This document shows, piece after piece, positions 1 to 61,531 of a stretch of 64,000 nt of DNA. Positions within the stretch are counted from its first letter, which is position 1. Each line of letters starts with the position of its first letter. A program made the position numbers and the translations under genes. The notes beneath the pieces are model-generated. The model was not told the origin of the DNA and ran no database searches. It saw only the letters and a program-made list of their open reading frames with translations. Source of the DNA: Norana najaformis (taxonomy: Eukaryota > Annelida > Clitellata > Crassiclitellata > Hormogastridae); NCBI GenBank assembly GCA_964023275.1, contig OZ029925.1, forward strand, positions 11,102,184 through 11,166,183, written 5' to 3'.

Positions 1-2
1 GG

Positions 3-809
3 CAGGTGCTGAGAAGCTACGGGGTTCCGGAAGAACTGGTGGAGTTGCTGGAAGATCTGTACAGCAGGTCGCTTAGTGCAGTGAGGGTGGATGGGGAACT
101 AACAGAACGGTTTAAGAAGGAGGTGGGAGTAAGACAAGGCCGTGGACTGTCGCCGTATCTATTCAACCTGCTGCTGGAGGCAGTTATGAGCCTCGCACTG
201 AGATATACCGAGGCCGGGGTCATGATGAATGGGCGGCTCCTGAACAACCTACGCTTCGCGGATGACATAGACCTGGTCGCGGAGGAACCGGCCCATCTTC
301 AGGAGCTGACGGACAGAGTGGAAGAGAGCAGCAAAAGACTGGGCCTCAAAATCAATGCGCAAAAGACCAAAACAATGACAATTGGGAAAAGGCAGGAGAA
401 CCTGGAGGTCAAACTGGAGAGTGGGACCCTGGAACAAGTGACAGAATTCGTATATCTGGGGAGCGTTATAACGGAGGACGGACGATGTACAAGAGACATC
501 ACACGCAGGATTGGCTTGGCGTGCGCGATGTTCGGCAGACTAAGCAAGATACGGAGAAGCAAAGAGATATCAATAAGAACTAAGAAAAAGCTATACGAAT
601 CATTCGTCATCCCAGTGTTGCTGTACGGAGCAGAATGCTGGTGCCTGCGCAGGGAGGACGAGAGGAGACTGCTGGTGGCAGAAATGGCCTGGCTGAGGAG
701 AATGCTGGGCAAAAGCAGGAGAGACAGGATCTGAAACGAGGTAATACGCAGGGAGCTCGGGCTGACGGATACAGTAGTGGACAGGGTCAGGAAAAAAAGG
801 CTCTCATAG
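3..809 (+). pseudogene. RTE-type LINE reverse transcriptase, 5' part of an interrupted copy
   Basis: The reading frame is open from the window edge and encodes a reverse transcriptase palm and C-terminal region: a GVRQG motif, the catalytic box RFADDIDLV (FADD form), a VYLGSVI block and a VLLYGAECW block, all in the order seen in RTE-clade LINEs. The usual '[10 protein letters not shown]' is changed to a form with R-G in place of the C-I pair. The frame is broken by TGA at 732-734 (likely a CGA to TGA change) and again by TAG at 807-809, where a TGG would give the family's LSWFGHV motif. The frame then stops at a transposon insertion and resumes at about 3160. The 5' end lies outside the window. 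A dead copy; confident on family, less so on clade. Confidence 0.85.
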
Positions 810-811
810 CT

Positions 812-920
812 CACTGGTCAACATAGAAATCGTTACTGACTGGAAAAGGCCCTAATGTGTAGCATCTTGGTGTGCTGAACACGAATATAACCATAAAAAA
901 TTTTTATTGGCTCTCGTTTT
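812..920 (+). repeat. 5' terminal inverted repeat of the element
   Basis: Imperfect inverted partner of 3042-3159. Three blocks match (12, 15 and about 14 bp). They are separated by diverged spacers of 50 versus 59 bp and 18 versus 18 bp, so the two arms have decayed by substitution and small indels. Confidence 0.75.
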
Positions 921-1111
921 GAAAATATTTCATATAGTTCATTTTTTATGTTTCACCATGTAAATTTATGCAGTAGGACTGCGACAATATCCTAAATAAG
1001 TCTAGAATGATGTAATATTCCACCTCATTGCATAATCCCATCATGGACACATCATGCACAGTTGATTACGTCATTTTCTGATGCAATGTAAAACTACAGC
1101 CAGTCGGCTGC

Positions 1112-1146
1112 TGACGTAAGATGACGTCAGCAGTGTACTATATAAA
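1112..1146 (+). promoter_or_regulatory. Core promoter of the element ORF: CRE-like sites and TATA box
   Basis: A half-site TGACGTAA (1112-1119) is followed by the palindromic CRE TGACGTCA (1122-1129) and a TATATAAA box (1139-1146). The ATG of the 564-codon ORF is 116 bp past the TATA box, so a start site about 30 bp downstream of TATA would give a short leader of around 90 bases. Transcription is inferred from the sequence only. Confidence 0.55.
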
Positions 1147-1261
1147 GCGAGTCGGAACGGTTGAGCATTTACAATATTACAGACTTTGTGCGAGACAGTT
1201 TAAGTTACTGTTTTATAAAACTATTATTACTTTATCCATTTAGATACAATACAGAACAGTA

Positions 1262-2956
1262 ATGCCTCGGAAGTGCGTAAATACTGTGGACAACTTTTGT
1301 TACATTTGTGGGGAAGTGACATTTGCCAACCAGAAGAAAAGTATCACTTATCAAGTCAAGAAGGCATATCATGCTTACTTCGAATGCAAGGATGGTGACC
1401 AAGACAAGCCATGGGCCCCGCATTTATGCTGTGCTACATGTACAACACAGCTTTCACAGTGGTTGAATGGCAAAAGACCATCAATGCCGTTTGCAGTTCC
1501 CATGGTGTGGAGAGAGCAAAGCAACCACGTAGATGACTGTTACTTCTGCTTGGTTCCTCCTCTTTCCGGTGGAATAACGAAGCAAAAGAAGTCGACAATA
1601 GTCTACCCAAACATTCCGTCAGCATTGAGACCAGTTCCACATGGTGATGGACTTCCTATTCCAGAACCTCCAGCAGAATATATTTTCCTTGATTCATCTG
1701 ATGAGGACAAGGGTGAGCCGACATGTTCTTCTCCTGGTCCGTCAGCGTGCAGTGATCCCGATTTTCACTGTGGTGCATCATCAACCCCACACAGAATAAC
1801 ACAGGAAGAACTAAATGACCCTGTTCGTGATTTGGACTTATCCAAAAACAAGGCAGAATTGCTAGGATCAAGACTCCAACAATGGAATCTTCTAGAAGAT
1901 GTCACAATTACTTCATATAGAAAGCGCCATCAGCAGTTGGAACCTTTCTTTATGAAGGAAGGTAATCTGGTATTCTGTTCCAATATTGACGACCTCATGA
2001 ATGCCTTACAGATCACTCATGACCCACAAGAATGGAGACTCTTTGTAGACTCTTCAACACTGAGTCTTAAGGCTGTGCTTTTGCACAATGGAAACCGTCT
2101 TCCATCTATTCTATTAGCGCATGCTGTCCACATGAAAGAGACATACGATAACCTAAAACAGCTACTGCATTCCATTGACTATAACAGGTACAAATGGCAC
2201 CTGTGTGGTGATTTGAAGGTAGTTGCCATTTTAATGGGACTGCAGCAAGGATATACAAAACATATGTGTTTCTTGTGTGAGTGGGATAGCCGAGCAAGAG
2301 AGTTGCACTACGTGCGGAAGGAATGGACTCCCAGACAAAACATGGCAGTTGGACAGAAGAATATCCAGCACCCAGCTCTGGTCGAGGCTCACAAAATCCT
2401 ACTACCACTCCTTCACATCAAACTAGGTTTGGTGAAGAACTTCGTGAAAGCCACGGACCGCACTTCGCCAGCTTTCCGATACCTGCATGAAAAATTCCCT
2501 CGACTCAGCGAAGCAAAGATTAAAGAGGGAGTTTTTGTGGGTCCTCAGATTAGAGAACTCTTCAAAGATGACCGCTTCAACAACTTGCTGGAGGGTGATG
2601 CGAAACAAGCATGGAATGCTTTTCGTCTAGTGTCTACAGACTTTCTGGGGAATGTTAGGGCAGAAAACTACAAGGAACTAGTAGAAGACATGCTCAAGCA
2701 GTACCAGAAATTTCGCTGCAATATGTCTCTGAAGATGCATTTCCTTCATTCCCATCTGGATTTCTTCCCTGACAACTGTGGTATGGTTAGTGACGAACAT
2801 GGCGAACGTTTTCATCAAGATATCGCAACAATGGAGCAAAGGTACCAGAGAAAATGGTCCACTACAATGTTGGCTGACTACTGCTGGACACTCCGCAGAG
2901 ATGCTCCCGAACAGCTGTACAAGAGACAGGCAAAAAATCTAAGAACTAGTCTATGA
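1262..2956 (+). CDS. Uncharacterised 564-aa zinc-binding, transposase-like protein
   Basis: A single uninterrupted ORF with no introns. The N-terminus has cysteine pairs C13-x2-C16, C56/C57-x2-C60 and C93-x2-C96, consistent with zinc binding. Residues 140-180 are an acidic and serine-rich linker. The C-terminal two thirds are conserved in an unnamed multi-copy animal family as I remember it. Candidate acidic residues for an RNase H-like fold are D263 (FVDSS), D317 (CGDLK, followed by C336-x2-C339) and E512 or E515 (DEHGERFHQ). That D-D-E reading is inference. The flanking inverted repeats and the dedicated promoter make a transposase the simplest role. It is intact although its host retroelement is dead, so insertion looks younger than the RTE copy. 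It could instead be a captured host gene. Confidence 0.7.
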   Translation: MPRKCVNTVDNFCYICGEVTFANQKKSITYQVKKAYHAYFECKDGDQDKPWAPHLCCATCTTQLSQWLNGKRPSMPFAVPMVWREQSNHVDDCYFCLVPPLSGGITKQKKSTIVYPNIPSALRPVPHGDGLPIPEPPAEYIFLDSSDEDKGEPTCSSPGPSACSDPDFHCGASSTPHRITQEELNDPVRDLDLSKNKAELLGSRLQQWNLLEDVTITSYRKRHQQLEPFFMKEGNLVFCSNIDDLMNALQITHDPQEWRLFVDSSTLSLKAVLLHNGNRLPSILLAHAVHMKETYDNLKQLLHSIDYNRYKWHLCGDLKVVAILMGLQQGYTKHMCFLCEWDSRARELHYVRKEWTPRQNMAVGQKNIQHPALVEAHKILLPLLHIKLGLVKNFVKATDRTSPAFRYLHEKFPRLSEAKIKEGVFVGPQIRELFKDDRFNNLLEGDAKQAWNAFRLVSTDFLGNVRAENYKELVEDMLKQYQKFRCNMSLKMHFLHSHLDFFPDNCGMVSDEHGERFHQDIATMEQRYQRKWSTTMLADYCWTLRRDAPEQLYKRQAKNLRTSL

Positions 2957-3041
2957 CCTGGTTTTTAAAAATATTAACTGTAAGTGTATCACTATTGGCA
3001 TGCATTGTGCGATATAAAATTACTTCATTTCAGATTACAAA

Positions 3042-3159
3042 AAAACTAGAGCCAATTCGGCATTTTCACTGTCATATTCGTGTTCAGCATAACAAATTGA
3101 TAAGAACTGACTAATTTCATTTCAGTAACATGACTTTTGTAAAAATTTGTTGTCCAGTG
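3042..3159 (-). repeat. 3' terminal inverted repeat of the element
   Basis: Inverted partner of 812-920; see the element entry for the matching blocks. It ends in CCAGTG, directly followed by TATAG and the resumed RTE frame. Confidence 0.75.
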
Positions 3160-3420
3160 TATAGTTTGGGCATGTATCAAGAATGGACGACAGGAGACTT
3201 CTGGCTAAGGCGATGTATGGTTATGTAGAAGGTACAAGAAGCCTTGGAAGACAACCAAAAACTTGGATGGATAACATAAGGGAGGATCTGAAGGCGTGGA
3301 ACATGGATATGAGAGAAGCGGTGGACAAAACCAGAGACAGAAGTGCCTGGAGACGACAAGTTGAGGCCTCATCGTTGGCCTGACGGAGGAGAATAAAAGA
3401 AGAAGAAGTAATGATTTATA
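3160..3420 (+). pseudogene. RTE-type LINE reverse transcriptase, 3' part of the interrupted copy
   Basis: From 3165 the sequence encodes FGHVSRMDD and then a GRQPKTWMDNI block and the C-terminal tryptophan-rich helix, ending in TGA at 3381-3383. A GAAGAAGAAG tail follows at about 3397-3410. It is the exact continuation of the ORF lost at 809, so these 3' codons are not a separate small gene. Confidence 0.8.
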
Positions 3421-3465: not shown

Positions 3466-6400
3466 TCACTAAATGGACAAAGCATAATGAGCAGTTCTGG
3501 CAAGCTGTTCATCGAATATTCACTGCGTCAAGCAGTTACTGTAACGCATAATAATGAATACTGCAGGGATTTCACGAATCTCAATATCCCTTGGAACAGT
3601 TCTACAGTTTGTGACAACCCAGATTCAGGTAATAATGATTGCTTCCTATCTTTCATGCTACATTCCACTGGAATCGTTTTGACTTAGTATTTTTGGCTGT
3701 AGTTCATTTGAGTCATTTCTGGTAAAGTTCTGATTCTTTTAGCATATTTCAAAATTATGAGACTGACTTTCTGGATAAATACTGGTAGATGAAATGTTAT
3801 TGACTTTGTTTACTTAGCCTTGGTATGTCAGAGCAGGTGCCTTGCTTCCTGATTCTCCCTTAGACAATGCACAGTACACATTTTATTGCTGAACTCACTG
3901 GAACATATATCTTGAACTGTCATTGTATCCTGGCTGGGATTTCAACCCTGACCTCTTGGTTGGCAAAACATGAACTAACCACTACTGTATCAAACTTAAT
4001 GGTGTAATAATTAGCAGTTACTTTATCTTACTTTTAAAATTTGTTTACTGTGTTTTTTAGGGTGTCCAGTAAGAAAACGGGGGTTGTTGCCTGATCCTGT
4101 CATTGGGTATGATGACAGCTCTGCACCACTATCACGTCACTTGTGTTAGTCATGTTTTATTGATTTATTTATTAATTATTTCTTTTTACATTGCTGATAA
4201 TTGAGTAATTGTGTGTTGATTTTTGTGCAGTTCTTGGCTGAATTGTTGAACAGTCATATTGTTGAACGATTAGCTTATTGAATAATTATTGATTGAATTC
4301 TTAAGCGATTATAAATTGGTTGAATTACTGAATGATTATAGGTTCCATTACTAATTGATGTATGGAGTGAAATTGGAATTATTAGGAACTAGTTGACTGA
4401 ACTTGAATTATTGAGGAATTGCAAGTGATAATTGATAGAATTACTTTTGATTGATTGACTGATTGAATGAAGTTTTTTGTTTGCATTTTAGATTAACATG
4501 CTTTACTTAACTCTGGTATTTCCTTGTTTTTCAGTTAGAAGTGAAAAGTTGCTATACACAAACCCCTTCTATGCCGCTGTGGGACATCTGTCAAGTTCAG
4601 CGGTTGTCACTTTGGCTGATTCTTGGAGTGAACGCAACCCAATCAGCCCTGCAATAAATCAGGACAAAGGGGTAAGAACCTTAGATTCCGTCCATGTTTC
4701 CCTTTCAGAGAAATGGTAAGAGCCTCAGATTCCATCCATGTTTCACTTTCAGAGAAATGGTAAAACACCAGATTCCATCCATGTTTCCCTTTCAGAGCAA
4801 TAGTAGGAACCTCAGATTCCATCCGTGTTTCCCTTTCAGAGAAATGGTAAGAACCTCAGATTCCATCCGTTTCCCTTTCAGAGCAATGGTGCTTTAATAA
4901 CATGTTACTCTGTTCATTAGTATCTGCTGTTTCCAGATGTTGGCTAGATGTTATAGAAGAGCTTAAAAAAGATTTGGGGTTATAAAAATCTGAGCTGGTC
5001 AAGGTTTAAAAACTGTATTAAAAGTTGACAATTATGTAGACTCAACAATTTATTGTGGCTATAATTTTGTCGGAAACGTCGGGTGCTACGCAGAGCTCTG
5101 ACACAGTTCTTTACAATCTGGACCAGATGCGTCACATTGTTTTTCTCGACCTGGACAATGATCCGAAGTTCTTCGAAATGCTGCCGGCCATTCTGCCAGA
5201 AACTTTTATGCTAGGTTTCTTCGGTGGAACAAATAATTGGAAGGAGCCAGTAAAGTATGACATTCAGTTTGCTATTATAATAGTTTATTGCTGGTTGAAA
5301 ATAACTCTGCATTGCCAGTATTCAAGCATTTTCATTTTATTGTGCTACAATCCTTTTAAGGCTTTTAGAAATGAACATATGCATGTATATATAAAAAAAC
5401 TTAATATAGCACCTTTCTAGCACCCCTAAAACACTGCAGCATACACAGTGCCTATGAATTTCAGGTACATACAAACAAAGATCTACTGAAGTAATGTGAT
5501 GTAGAATAGTACTGATACTGGTCCTTTGTGCCAGTAGTTCTGTGAATGGCATCAGAGTGGTTTTTGAGGCTCTTCCTCATTGTTATCAATATCTGCTTAC
5601 CAATTATGTTTACCTATAATAATTACTAATCTAATGTGCATCATGTCAAAGTAGTCATTTGCGTTCTGCATAACTGCCATGAATACAGTGCACACAGACA
5701 CCCGTCACAAGGCTCTGCTGATAAGTTTACCTGCATACACATTGCACCTGGAAGCAGACTGCATTCCTGCATTGTGGAGTTTGGATGTAGCTCAGGCTGA
5801 GGAGTCAACAATCAAGAAAAGGGTGCATTTTGAGTGGACTGATGAATGCCAGAGTGTTTTACACTCTTAAGGGATGTCTTATTAAAGCCGATGTTTTTGT
5901 ATTTGCTCAACAAAAATAGACACTTCACTTTCTTTGTCTTTTAACAGTTGTCCTGTTTACCAAGAGATCAGACAGAACGGGCAGGTGTACATCAATAAGC
6001 GTAGCGGAAGGAAAAAAAACGCTAGCGATTTTGCCATCTGTATTATGGTATGTTTCCATATGTTTATCTGTTACATATTGTACTGCAGTTCATACGTATT
6101 ACAATGGGCTACAGCAAACAGGTAATGTTCACTGTGAGTTATACCTGCTATATAAGATTAGTCTTCTGTGTACGAAAAAAAAACATTACAAGAAGATGCA
6201 GTTTCATGAGACAGGGCCCTGTCTAATTCGAAACCATTTAATATGGAATATCCCAAGGTATCCTTGGTCATCTGCTATTTTTAGAAATATTTGAATAATC
6301 AAATTCATCCAATCTATTTAACTTTATTTTATGCACTGACGATACAAATTACTTTTTACCTAACAAATCAAATGGATGTGCGTTTAGTTTGTAACCAATG

Positions 6401-51024: not shown

Positions 51025-51127
51025 CAACGTAGCATAACTTTCGTCCAATTTTCGAGGATCGGCGTTCACAGTAGGCGGAACCACTGATGCGACTGGCACA
51101 GCAGACGCTCTAGACTCCGCCCCTATT

Positions 51128-54100
51128 ATGTCGCTATCGCCATGGGACCTATCGGGCAACGTTGGCTTCGACCTGTCGACCTATCAACCGCGTCGACCGA
51201 GCTACGTCTTCGCCACGACGCAGGTAACACGGCAGCGGAGCGGCAGCTATCAGCACGCCACCGAATCCCCGGACCACGCATCCCCCGATCAGCCGGACTT
51301 CCCGCGGCTCAAGCGGAAGGGCAGCTACCGAGAGGCCACGGATGCTGAAGACGACGACGAAGAGGAAGAAGAGGACGAGGACGAGGACGAAGACGAAGGG
51401 ACGCGGAACTTCCGACTCCCTGACAGAACCTCCGAAGTCCATATCACCGTTCCAAACCACGTCGACTCGATCCACAGCGTCGTCGACGACCAAGACGACT
51501 CCCACCATGACCGGCAGATTGACGAAGGTCTCGAATTTCGGTCCAGCTCGGAGACGACTCCGCGTCGTCCTGGTCAGTCGCTGGAGACTGTCTACCCGGG
51601 CGGCAGCTGCTCTGGCGCGGCTAAGGACCAGGACGTCGACGCGGACGAGTTGGGTAACACAAGATGGCGTTACATAAAGAACCTGGTCGTGCTGTCGCTG
51701 AGTTTCATACTCGTCTTCTCCGCCTTCCGTTCCATCCAGAACCTCCAGTCGAGTCTGAACCAAACCGGACGGCTTGGGGTCGTCGCGATGTGTTGCGTTC
51801 ACGGGACGATGTGTCTCAGCTGTCTCTTCTCGCCGGTCCTCACTACACGCATCTCGCCCAAGTGGACTATCGTCGTTGGTCTCGTCTTCTACCTGTTCTG
51901 GATCGTAGCCAACTTCTTCCCGCATCTCTATACCCTAGTGCCGACCTCAATTGGCGTCGGATTTGGGCAGAGCCTGGCCTGGGGTGCGCAGGTGGCCTAT
52001 ATCGAACGGCTCGCGACAGAGTACGCGCAGATGACCAGGGCGCTCACGCGACAGGAAGTCTACCGGTCGAACGGGATCTTTCTCGCCTGTTTTCAGACAT
52101 CGCACGTCTGGGGAAATCTCGTTTCGTCGCTGATGCTCAGCGCAGACCGGCTGCCGGGACAGACGCTGAACAACCTGACGGATGAACCGGTGAATGACTG
52201 GGACACCGGAATGCACTGCGGGGTCTACGAGCGGTGCAAGGAACAGTCTTCCGTCTGGACCAGTCCGGGATCCGGTAAGAACAAGGTGAAGTGTAAGTGG
52301 TAAAGGTTTATGGTCTTGAAGATTCTTGGATCCATTAAAAACATGGCAAAGTGTAAGCAATAGGGGCTTGATTAGTCTGGATAAAACGAGGCGCAATGCA
52401 GTTGGTAAAGGTCTAAGGTCTAGCGGAGTTCTTGATCCGGAAAAACTAAGGCGACATTGAAGTGGTAAAGGTACAAAAACTCAGAGTCCTGGATATGGTA
52501 TGAAACAGGTGAAGTGTATATAGCAAGGGTGTAAGGCGTTGAACAGTTCTTTATCAGTTAAGAATCCAAATAGTAGTCGATCTTTTAAAATAAGTCTGCA
52601 TGTGGTGTTTGCTGTTTTCTTCAGTGGTGCTTGCTTCCAAGACCGTCTTGAAGATGATGGGCTCCTACCTTGTCTTTGCCTTCACTGGCTTTCTGCTGAT
52701 TCTCATCTTTCTTGAGAAACTCGGAACAAGCACCGGACCTAAACCACCCTGCCTTAAGGTGCGTGCTCAAATACTCTAAAAACTAAGGCACGGAAGATCA
52801 TTTCTTGCGGTTTTCGAACACCCTAAGCTCAGGGCTAGATAAAGTATGGTGCAAGGGTGGTAAGATAAAAGTAAGATGAGGTGAGGGCGGTTAAAGTAAG
52901 ACAAAATAAGGTATCAGATAAGGTAAGGTATGATATGTTACGGTAGGGTAAAGTAAGGCAAGATAAGGTTAGGTGTTATAAGGTAGGGTTCGGTAAGCTA
53001 GGACAAGGTAAGGTGAAATAAAAATAATACTAGGCAAGATAAGGTGAAATTAAGGCAAGTTAGAGAAAAGTAATATAAATCAGAGTCCTTTTACGCAACG
53101 GCCTGTTAAGGTCTGTAGTAGGCCTACACTAAACTGCATACTTTTCAGGCGGTCGTTGTAAACTTACGACATCTGGTGTCGAATCGCACATATCGCCTTC
53201 TCATTCCGCTCCTCGTGTTCAACGGTTTCGAACAGGGCTTTGTTTATTCCGACTACACCAAAGTAGGATTGACTGCTGTTTCACTTACAGATTGATTGAT
53301 TAACTAATTAATTGATTGAGTGAGTGGCTGACGACTGATTGATTTTATTGATTGATTGGTTGATTGAATGATTGATAGATTGATTCATTCATGACTGCTT
53401 GATTCAATATCTGATATATATCATTCGCCTTTTCCGCTCTTCCTTTATGCATGTCCGTGTCCTTTGCAGAATACACCTTATGCTTGACTTCAAAACTGCA
53501 TCTATCATCGCCACATCCATAGTCCATGCAATACTCGAGTACTGCAATTCACTTTTCCTCAAAATAGATACCACTCAAATAAACAGCCTTCAAGCTATCC
53601 AGAACGCTCTCGCTCGTGCTGTCACCAAAACTCCCAAACACTATCACATCACTCCTGTTCTCAAATCACTTCATTGGCTTAAAATATCTAAACGCATAGA
53701 GTATAAAGACCTTTCGCTTACATATAACATAATTCGGTAACAGGACAATAACCCGCCGGACAATAACCCCCCTGGACGATAACCCCTGGACAATAACCCC
53801 CATGCAAAAAAAACCCGGATAATAACTTCCCGGACAATAACCCTATACTGATACAGTACACAAGTATATTGATACACATAAAAGACTTACCATACATCAA
53901 AAACTAAATATTAGACAATTATTAGACATTTGGATTTATTCAAAGAGGACAAGCGTTACAGCAAGTTCACTGCAGCCAATTTCTGGCTTGTCACCCATCA
54001 CAACCTCCTAGGAAGAAGTAGGCTGACTCCAGTGCATGGCTTCTGACCGTCATTAGCAACCACAATGAGCGCAATGTTCTTGACTATTACGTGGAATAGC

Positions 54101-58924: not shown

Positions 58925-59071
58925 CACAGCGGAAGGATCGTCGTACCTGACTGAACGTTGGAAAAGACGTCACGCATGATCGAATTCCTTGGCAGATGAA
59001 ACAGGTGACATGCCTCTACGAGTCATTGGAAATAGAATGGTCAACCTGCAAGCCCGAAACCTGGAAAAGCG

Positions 59072-59427
59072 AAATTAGAATTGTATGGAGGAACGATTTT
59101 GAAGAGACTGGAATTTGAGAACATAACCGAAACACTACGAAATACATGTCATATTGACGTCATTTCGGTAACCTGGCAACGTAGACGCAATGGTTATTAG
59201 AACGGTGTCGGTTTCGGCAAGTGACATAAGTTTAAACATGTGCCGCTGATTTTTGTGAGAGTTCCCATTTTGAAGCGAAAAGCTGGTCCTAGATGTGGTT
59301 TGGATTCTGCGATGTTTCTTAGTGAAAGGGAACATTGAAGAAGCTGCGTCGTTTTCGCCTACTACGCGATACCATTGATCTCTTGTTGAAACAACAGCAG
59401 CTTTGGTTGCTTTTGGAAATTTGTATC
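59072..59427 (+). repeat. ~360-bp direct duplication, copy A
   Basis: Begins AAATTAGAATTGTATGGAGG and ends GGAAATTTGTATCGGTA. It shares long near-identical blocks (for example CGTCATTTCGGTAACCTGGC) with 61174-61531 in the same orientation. It lies in the putative 3' UTR of the UNC93-like gene. Confidence 0.85.
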
Positions 59428-60245: not shown

Positions 60246-61173
60246 AATTTCAACGGCGCTGGAGAAGTCATTAGAGTTATTTTGAATCCTAATTAGAACT
60301 CAATCCGTATAGTCTTTGAGTAGTGTAACAGTACACCGTCATATTAAGAATTTATTTGCGTAATGTTACGATAGCAAACGCACAGTCGGGAGAGAAACTG
60401 TTTACAAATACGATGTATCTTTCAAAGATACGACAGAGGTTCCTCGATATCAACGTCACGCTTCAGTGCATTGTTACATATCATTTCAGTTCGCTTCTCA
60501 TTACTATAATAATCACACGCAGAGAAATCTAAGCAGTAGAAGACACGTATCGTTGAGCAAATCAGAAAGTCATTCACGATACAATACGAAACAAGGCGCA
60601 GTAGCAAGCGACACCTAGTAACCTTAGTTGCACATTTATATAGCGCCTCTTTAAAAAAATTAAAAACTCGGAGTTACTTCTTACCTGACAGCAGAAGAAT
60701 CTGCACATAATAAAAGAACAAAGCAGAACAGACCAAATAATAGATTCGATAACGTGCAAGTGTTCGCATTGATCGCTGGGGAGATGTTCTACCTTACGAC
60801 TCTTTCGAGGTGCTATACACTTTTAAAGTAATGTCTGAAAACAGCAGACTCTAGAGTAGCCTTAACGCTCATAGACAAATGTCTGGTAATAAAACAACCT
60901 ATTTCGCCTATAACCAAACAGTAACGCGGCCCCTTAAAAGTAATTAGGCGAAACTGTTTCGACATTGAACGAGATCTGTCACCAGTCAGCTTATGTCTAC
61001 AAGAATTCTAGTCAGGTAAATCTTTAAAGCATCAAAATATATTAAAACTATGCAAACCCAGAGACAGCTAACAACATTTCTGATGAATAAAATTCTTCAA
61101 CGCTTTGCAATAGCTCTAGTGTTAACGCAAAAAAACATATACGTACAAGTCTACGTTTAGTCATTTAAAGGCA

Positions 61174-61531
61174 AAATTAGAATTATGTGAAGAAACGATT
61201 TTTAAGAGACTGGAATTTGAGAACCTAAACGAAACACTACGAAATACATGTCGTATTGACGTCATTTCGGTAACCTGGCAACGTAGACGCAATGGTTATT
61301 AGAACAGTGTTGGTTTCCTCAAGTGACATAAATTTAAACATATGCTGCCGATTTTTGTGAGAATACCCATTTTGAAGCGAAAAGCTGGTCCTAGACGTGA
61401 TTTGGATTCTGTGATGTTTCATGGTGAGAGGCAAAATTGAAGAAGCTGTGTCGTTTCCACCTACTAAGCGATACCATTGATCTCTTGTTGAAACAACAGT
61501 TGCTATGGTTGCCTGTGGAAATTTGTATTGT
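61174..61531 (+). repeat. ~360-bp direct duplication, copy B
   Basis: Partner of 59072-59427, same strand, 2.1 kb apart. Differences are scattered substitutions and 1-2 bp indels. Confidence 0.85.

Follow-up and report, generated by a model that had tools for sequence, protein, structure and literature searches.

The locus raises the question of what kind of element lies at positions 812 to 3159 of the window, that is, of the whole 64,000-nt stretch of DNA analysed here, where a long open reading frame is enclosed by inverted repeats within the remains of a retrotransposon. The original prediction was that of a complete cut-and-paste DNA transposon whose protein belongs to a multicopy family listed as 'uncharacterised', possibly the representative of a new transposon group; the ends, the copies and the intact ORF bear out the complete transposon, and the supposed new group is withdrawn, since the hallmarks of Chapaev3 given in the available sections of PMC4079192 fit. 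This is a real, well preserved transposon of an already known kind, very probably a recently active, autonomous Chapaev3 element (CMC/CMCT group), with the window copy lying in a decayed retrotransposon.

The interrupted retrotransposon is a dead non-LTR element, the 5′ part of which (1..811, + strand) corresponds to the C-terminal region of the reverse transcriptase and is recognized by in-frame stops, by genomic paralogs and by a Pfam RVT_1 match (E 2.7e-8) on its ORF at 186-731, whereas the 3′ part (3160..3383, + strand), recognized by the resumption of the frame and by paralogs, runs from the target-site copy to the stop codon. With positions 812-3166 removed, i.e., the element plus 7 bases, the RT frame reads on as ...KKRLS*LGHVSRMDDRRLL..., in agreement with the predicted resumption at the far end, and stops are already present in the frame flanking the element. 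At least 39 matches to the flanks besides the window were listed in the genome (40 of 182 candidates scored), and in all 29 paralogs that were extracted the flanks adjoin each other without the element, indicating that the element is a real insertion. The empty site reads CTCTC-TTG-GTTYGG in 26 of these 29, where one flank letter may vary, and the three variants are L049 (CTCTCATGGTTTGGG), L054 (with GAG) and L065 (CTTTCTTGATTTGGG), the first of which is the nearest to the CTCTCATAG..TTTGGG of the window. The window junctions are CTCTCATAG-CT[element]TA-TAGTTTGGG, which confirms the shared ATAG; TAG is preceded by A and followed by T, and two extra bases flank the element at either end. The duplication is not flush because CT and TA separate the element from the shared ATAG. 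Compared with the 29 uninterrupted paralogs, the left junction (806..811, + strand) may thus be read as ATAG, the target-site copy, followed by CT as two extra bases. The window alone had pointed to a duplication of 7 bp (CATAGCT/TATAGTT, five of seven matching), a reading that was dropped, as the other copies show 3 bp. The window copy jumped into an already decayed retrotransposon.

The complete element (812..3159, + strand) is 2348 bp long, and 31 further copies extend over 1-2348 and one, with an altered left tip, over 8-2348. The left terminal inverted repeat (812..920, + strand) carries the tip CACTGGTCAACA at 812-823 and the inner blocks TGCTGAACACGAATAT at about 873-888 and ATTGGCTCT at about 906-914, and the right one occupies 3042..3159 (− strand). 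The repeats are long and imperfect, with tips of the form CACTGG[T/A]CAACA in an element that runs from CACTGG to CCAGTG; their local alignment score is 74, against 27.8 ± 4.6 and a maximum of 49 in 500 dinucleotide shuffles, and the ungapped core (860-920/3042-3102) is 74% complementary. The CRE-like TGACGTCA (1122-1129) together with TATATAAA (1139-1146), both on the + strand and recognized by sequence match, is the probable promoter. Elsewhere, the window contains tandem repeats of about 44 bp (4671-4890), a direct repeat of 362 bp with 90% identity (59065-59426 and 61167-61528) and a 421-aa stop-to-stop frame (51038-52303, + strand) that is exceeded in length by one other frame of the window.

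The genome searched comprises 608 Mb in 17 contigs, and many second copies sharing both ends were found, as the earlier proposal of a mobile element would have it. The search with the element gave at least 44 rows (40 of 1131 candidates scored), of which at least 31 besides the window span 1-2348 with 98-99% identity; exact left tips number 902 (504 + 398), and an internal 28-base segment of the ORF, allowing at most one mismatch, occurs 1057 times (510 + 547, with 0 in both for the reversed control). On contig C1, 36 of 50 sampled left ends have a right end at the full-length distance. The 33 aligned copies (32 full or nearly full, plus the window) show a mean pairwise identity of 99.4% and a minimum of 98.7%, and CACTGG...CCAGTG is shared by the window copy and 31 of the 32 others, L012 being the one with the altered left tip; of 36 further right ends, 33 retain the final G. 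In 28 of the 32 copies other than the window's, the frame stays open over at least 566 codons, and 26 of these share one start motif. Protein matches from 6536 candidates, ranked so that the best are favoured, are free of stops in 65 of the top 77. The expansion of the element is probably recent and ongoing. Two copies about 33 kb apart on one contig, L037 and L038 (G000:C5), share an unusual length of 2344 bp, as after a local hop, and differ in the extra bases at the right junction (A and AA, respectively).

The transposase is encoded by a single exon of 564 aa (1262..2956, + strand), the uninterrupted frame of the original prediction, which is also supported by homologs. Its assignment to a multicopy family lacking a functional name likewise stands, with at least 1783 homologs at E<=0.001 (7993 candidates scored) in a large family that has no Pfam name; most of the 120 homologs listed per search sit on contigs of about 2-3 kb, i.e., element-sized, and the named ones among those listed come from moth, firefly and frog. 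The RAG1/Transib-like catalytic core (aa 176-563; 1787..2950, + strand) contains D263, D317, C336/C339, L384-H385, H493/H498 and E512 or E515, all of them, including both glutamates, invariant in the 111 alignment rows. The predicted core superposes on RAG1/Transib, and it is most similar in structure to RAG1, to ProtoRAG and to a single HzTransib entry, with lower HzTransib scores also present, in line with the RNase H fold and the DDE-type acidic residues suspected at the outset; on the conserved residues and the model, the protein is a predicted DDE/RNase H-type transposase, in which E512 or E515 would be the catalytic glutamate. For the window protein, Pfam gave nothing beyond a Retrotrans_gag match below threshold (E 0.11), and for the family members weak single-member matches, with RAG1_imp_bd in 2 of 30 (best E 0.32), all taken as chance, and no model was above its cut-off in the family members shown in full. 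Sequence searches of the PDB returned nothing meaningful with the window protein, the A2 profile, P0113 or the N-terminal 100 aa, and with HMMER the A2 profile found no RAG1/Transib chain at E<=10. Among the viral structures of BFVD there was no match at E<=0.001; in viral contigs the single protein gave no pattern match and the alignment 44, with no confirmed relative, and a search of genome contigs for related loci gave 47 pattern matches, none confirmed.

The N-terminal part (aa 1-140; 1262..1681, + strand), originally described as zinc-ribbon-like, is indeed a candidate zinc domain, with C13, C16, C57 and C60, and with H89, C93, C96 and H127 also conserved, but seems better described as ZAD-like. 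The AF2 model of these residues (pLDDT 93.3) has ZADs, at weak similarity, as its only listed structural matches in the PDB, and the best Pfam zf-AD score in the family (P0113, E 0.0017, 19 bits) is below the cut-off of 28; zf-AD appears at E<=0.1 in 7 of 62 family members, the window protein not among them, and a zf-AD search of the whole genome gave no match in the 150 of 1294 candidates scored, as was also the case in all 14 control genomes, so that this negative carries no weight. The likeness to the ZAD (zf-AD, PF07776) of insect C2H2 proteins lies, weakly, in the predicted fold and in the CxxC..CxxC pattern; in ZAD proteins, C2H2 fingers follow the domain, whereas here the transposase core follows it, and zf-AD stays below the Pfam cut-off. 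The ZAD-like N-terminus of a transposase, as seen in the model, may be a new detail. A tentative and rather doubtful extension is that the N-terminal domain of Chapaev3 is a true ZAD, and that a Chapaev3 transposase either gave rise to the insect ZAD or captured it. The THAP and BED domains, which relate to the P-element and hAT transposases, offer a parallel, and we know of no account of the origin of the ZAD of insect regulators; should the ZAD-like N-terminus prove real, it would become possible to test where this greatly expanded domain came from. In the portions of the literature accessible to our search, neither a published name for the family nor a link between ZAD and transposases was found, and one ZAD paper mentions THAP and the P element.

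Both junctions could be read in 69 of the 83 copies examined, the other 14 being without a right end where expected. A flush identical 3-mer is present in 37 of the 69 (38 by the count of the control), against 15.6 ± 2.9 for re-paired flanks, with a maximum of 26 in 2000 re-pairings. In these 37 copies, which include L012, whose CACTGG tip is missing and whose flank was extrapolated, the duplication is TWA in 30 (TTA in 19, TAA in 11), with A before it in 27 and T after it in 30. No flush duplication is seen in the remaining 32, the window's included: in 21 the left 3-mer is found again at the right end, set off from it by 1-4 extra bases (AA in 8, A in 3, TA in 3, four others once each, and a changed terminal G in 3), and in 11, the window's among them, there is no clear duplication. 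A two-base right offset was observed in 14 of the 69 copies, against 6.4 ± 1.9 after re-pairing (maximum 14 of 2000), whereas right offsets of 1, 3, 4 and 5 (5, 7, 2 and 4 observed, against 3.3, 4.2, 3.0 and 3.4) and left offsets of 1-4 (2, 5, 5 and 3, against 2.0, 5.1, 3.6 and 2.6) are not above the control. Since only the two-base right offset exceeds the control, two extra right-end bases look real in some copies, and those at the remaining offsets may reflect chance in AT-rich flanks. No clear grouping of the extra-base copies into a common lineage emerged from the 8 informative columns. These data suggest that the right end is sometimes cleaved imprecisely, outside the tip, with the extra bases, mostly two, carried between element and duplication; the extra two bases at the right junction may be a new detail.

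A mechanism consistent with these features is one in which the transposase would bind and pair both long inverted ends and the DDE site would cut at the CACTGG tips, probably via hairpins on the flanking DNA by analogy with RAG and Transib, which cleave through hairpinned flanks. The element would then be joined to a 3-bp staggered cut in A-TWA-T, and a right cut falling at times outside the tip would leave two extra bases. The ZAD-like domain, presumably binding zinc, may serve dimer formation, and the element may be active at present.

Other explanations are far less probable than a Chapaev3 element. The long intact ORF could belong to a host gene, a domesticated transposase lying by chance between inverted repeats, but for the window copy this is refuted by about a thousand dispersed copies of the ends and of the ORF segment together with the 29 of 29 target paralogs without the insert. 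Equally slight is the probability of a Transib or ProtoRAG element proper, from RAG1's own lineage, to which the structural ranking of RAG1, ProtoRAG and HzTransib and the CAC at the start of the ends would point; the target duplication of Transib is 5 bp, against the 3-bp signal here, and the A2 profile finds no RAG1/Transib chain by sequence at E<=10. A new CMCT-type lineage beside Chapaev3, with the same ends and motifs and a separate descent, is somewhat less remote and still very unlikely: the Chapaev3 assignment is one by features, neither of two homolog searches has the name Chapaev among its 120 listed entries, and 32 of 69 copies are without a flush duplication, but TWA between A and T, the C(2)C, LH and H(4)H motifs, the size and the single exon all match published Chapaev3 elements. 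On the Chapaev3 reading, the proteins of a very large family listed as 'uncharacterised' can probably be called Chapaev3 transposases, and the high-confidence model predicts that a transposase of the Chapaev type has a core like that of RAG1. Its copies, about a thousand, near-identical and, where examined, mostly intact, make the element well suited to a transposition assay.

Among known systems, RAG1, ProtoRAG and Transib resemble the element in the catalytic fold, in the large helical insertion between the second D and E, and in the C2 and H2 motif, and the spacings of RAG1, with 19 and 22 residues from D to the two cysteines and 5 between the histidines, are those found here; Transib and RAG1 differ in the 5-bp duplication, in another N-terminus and in the absence of sequence similarity by HMMER. 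As to Spongebob CACTA elements, also considered, CCC ends and 2-bp duplications (in the text available of PMC4298943) do not fit. For the CMCT clade, the parts of Kojima 2025 at hand (PMC12730594) give C(2)C and H(3-4)H between the second D and E, CA..TG ends and 2-5 bp duplications, all shared by the element, which within the clade fits Chapaev3 by its features. The available sections of Zhang et al. 2014 (PMC4079192) describe Chapaev ends as CAC..GTG, the transposase motifs as C(2)C, LH and H(4)H, and the Chapaev3 duplications as TWA between A and T in all elements examined; here, the CAC...GTG termini with TIRs are present, DDE and the three motifs occur in 111 of 111 rows, and TWA is found in 30 of 37 flush copies, though the window copy and 31 others depart from the flush duplication. 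The size is likewise that of Chapaev3 (about 2.3-2.5 kb and 556-562 aa), with 2348 bp and 564 aa against 2289 bp and 556 aa for Garfield_BM and 2451 bp and 562 aa for Merrow_PMa; these two have two exons, whereas the element has one, as do most other Chapaev3, for which small deleted derivatives also exist (same sections of PMC4079192). Two Chapaev3 families are listed among the repeats of the fly Calliphora in the excerpt of PMC3630058, and Chapaev3 relatives, like those of the element, occur in insects and a vertebrate. The element thus resembles Garfield_BM and Merrow_PMa in ends, target, length, transposase size and motifs, and differs from them in its single exon, its very high and very recent copy number, and its excess of two-base right junctions.
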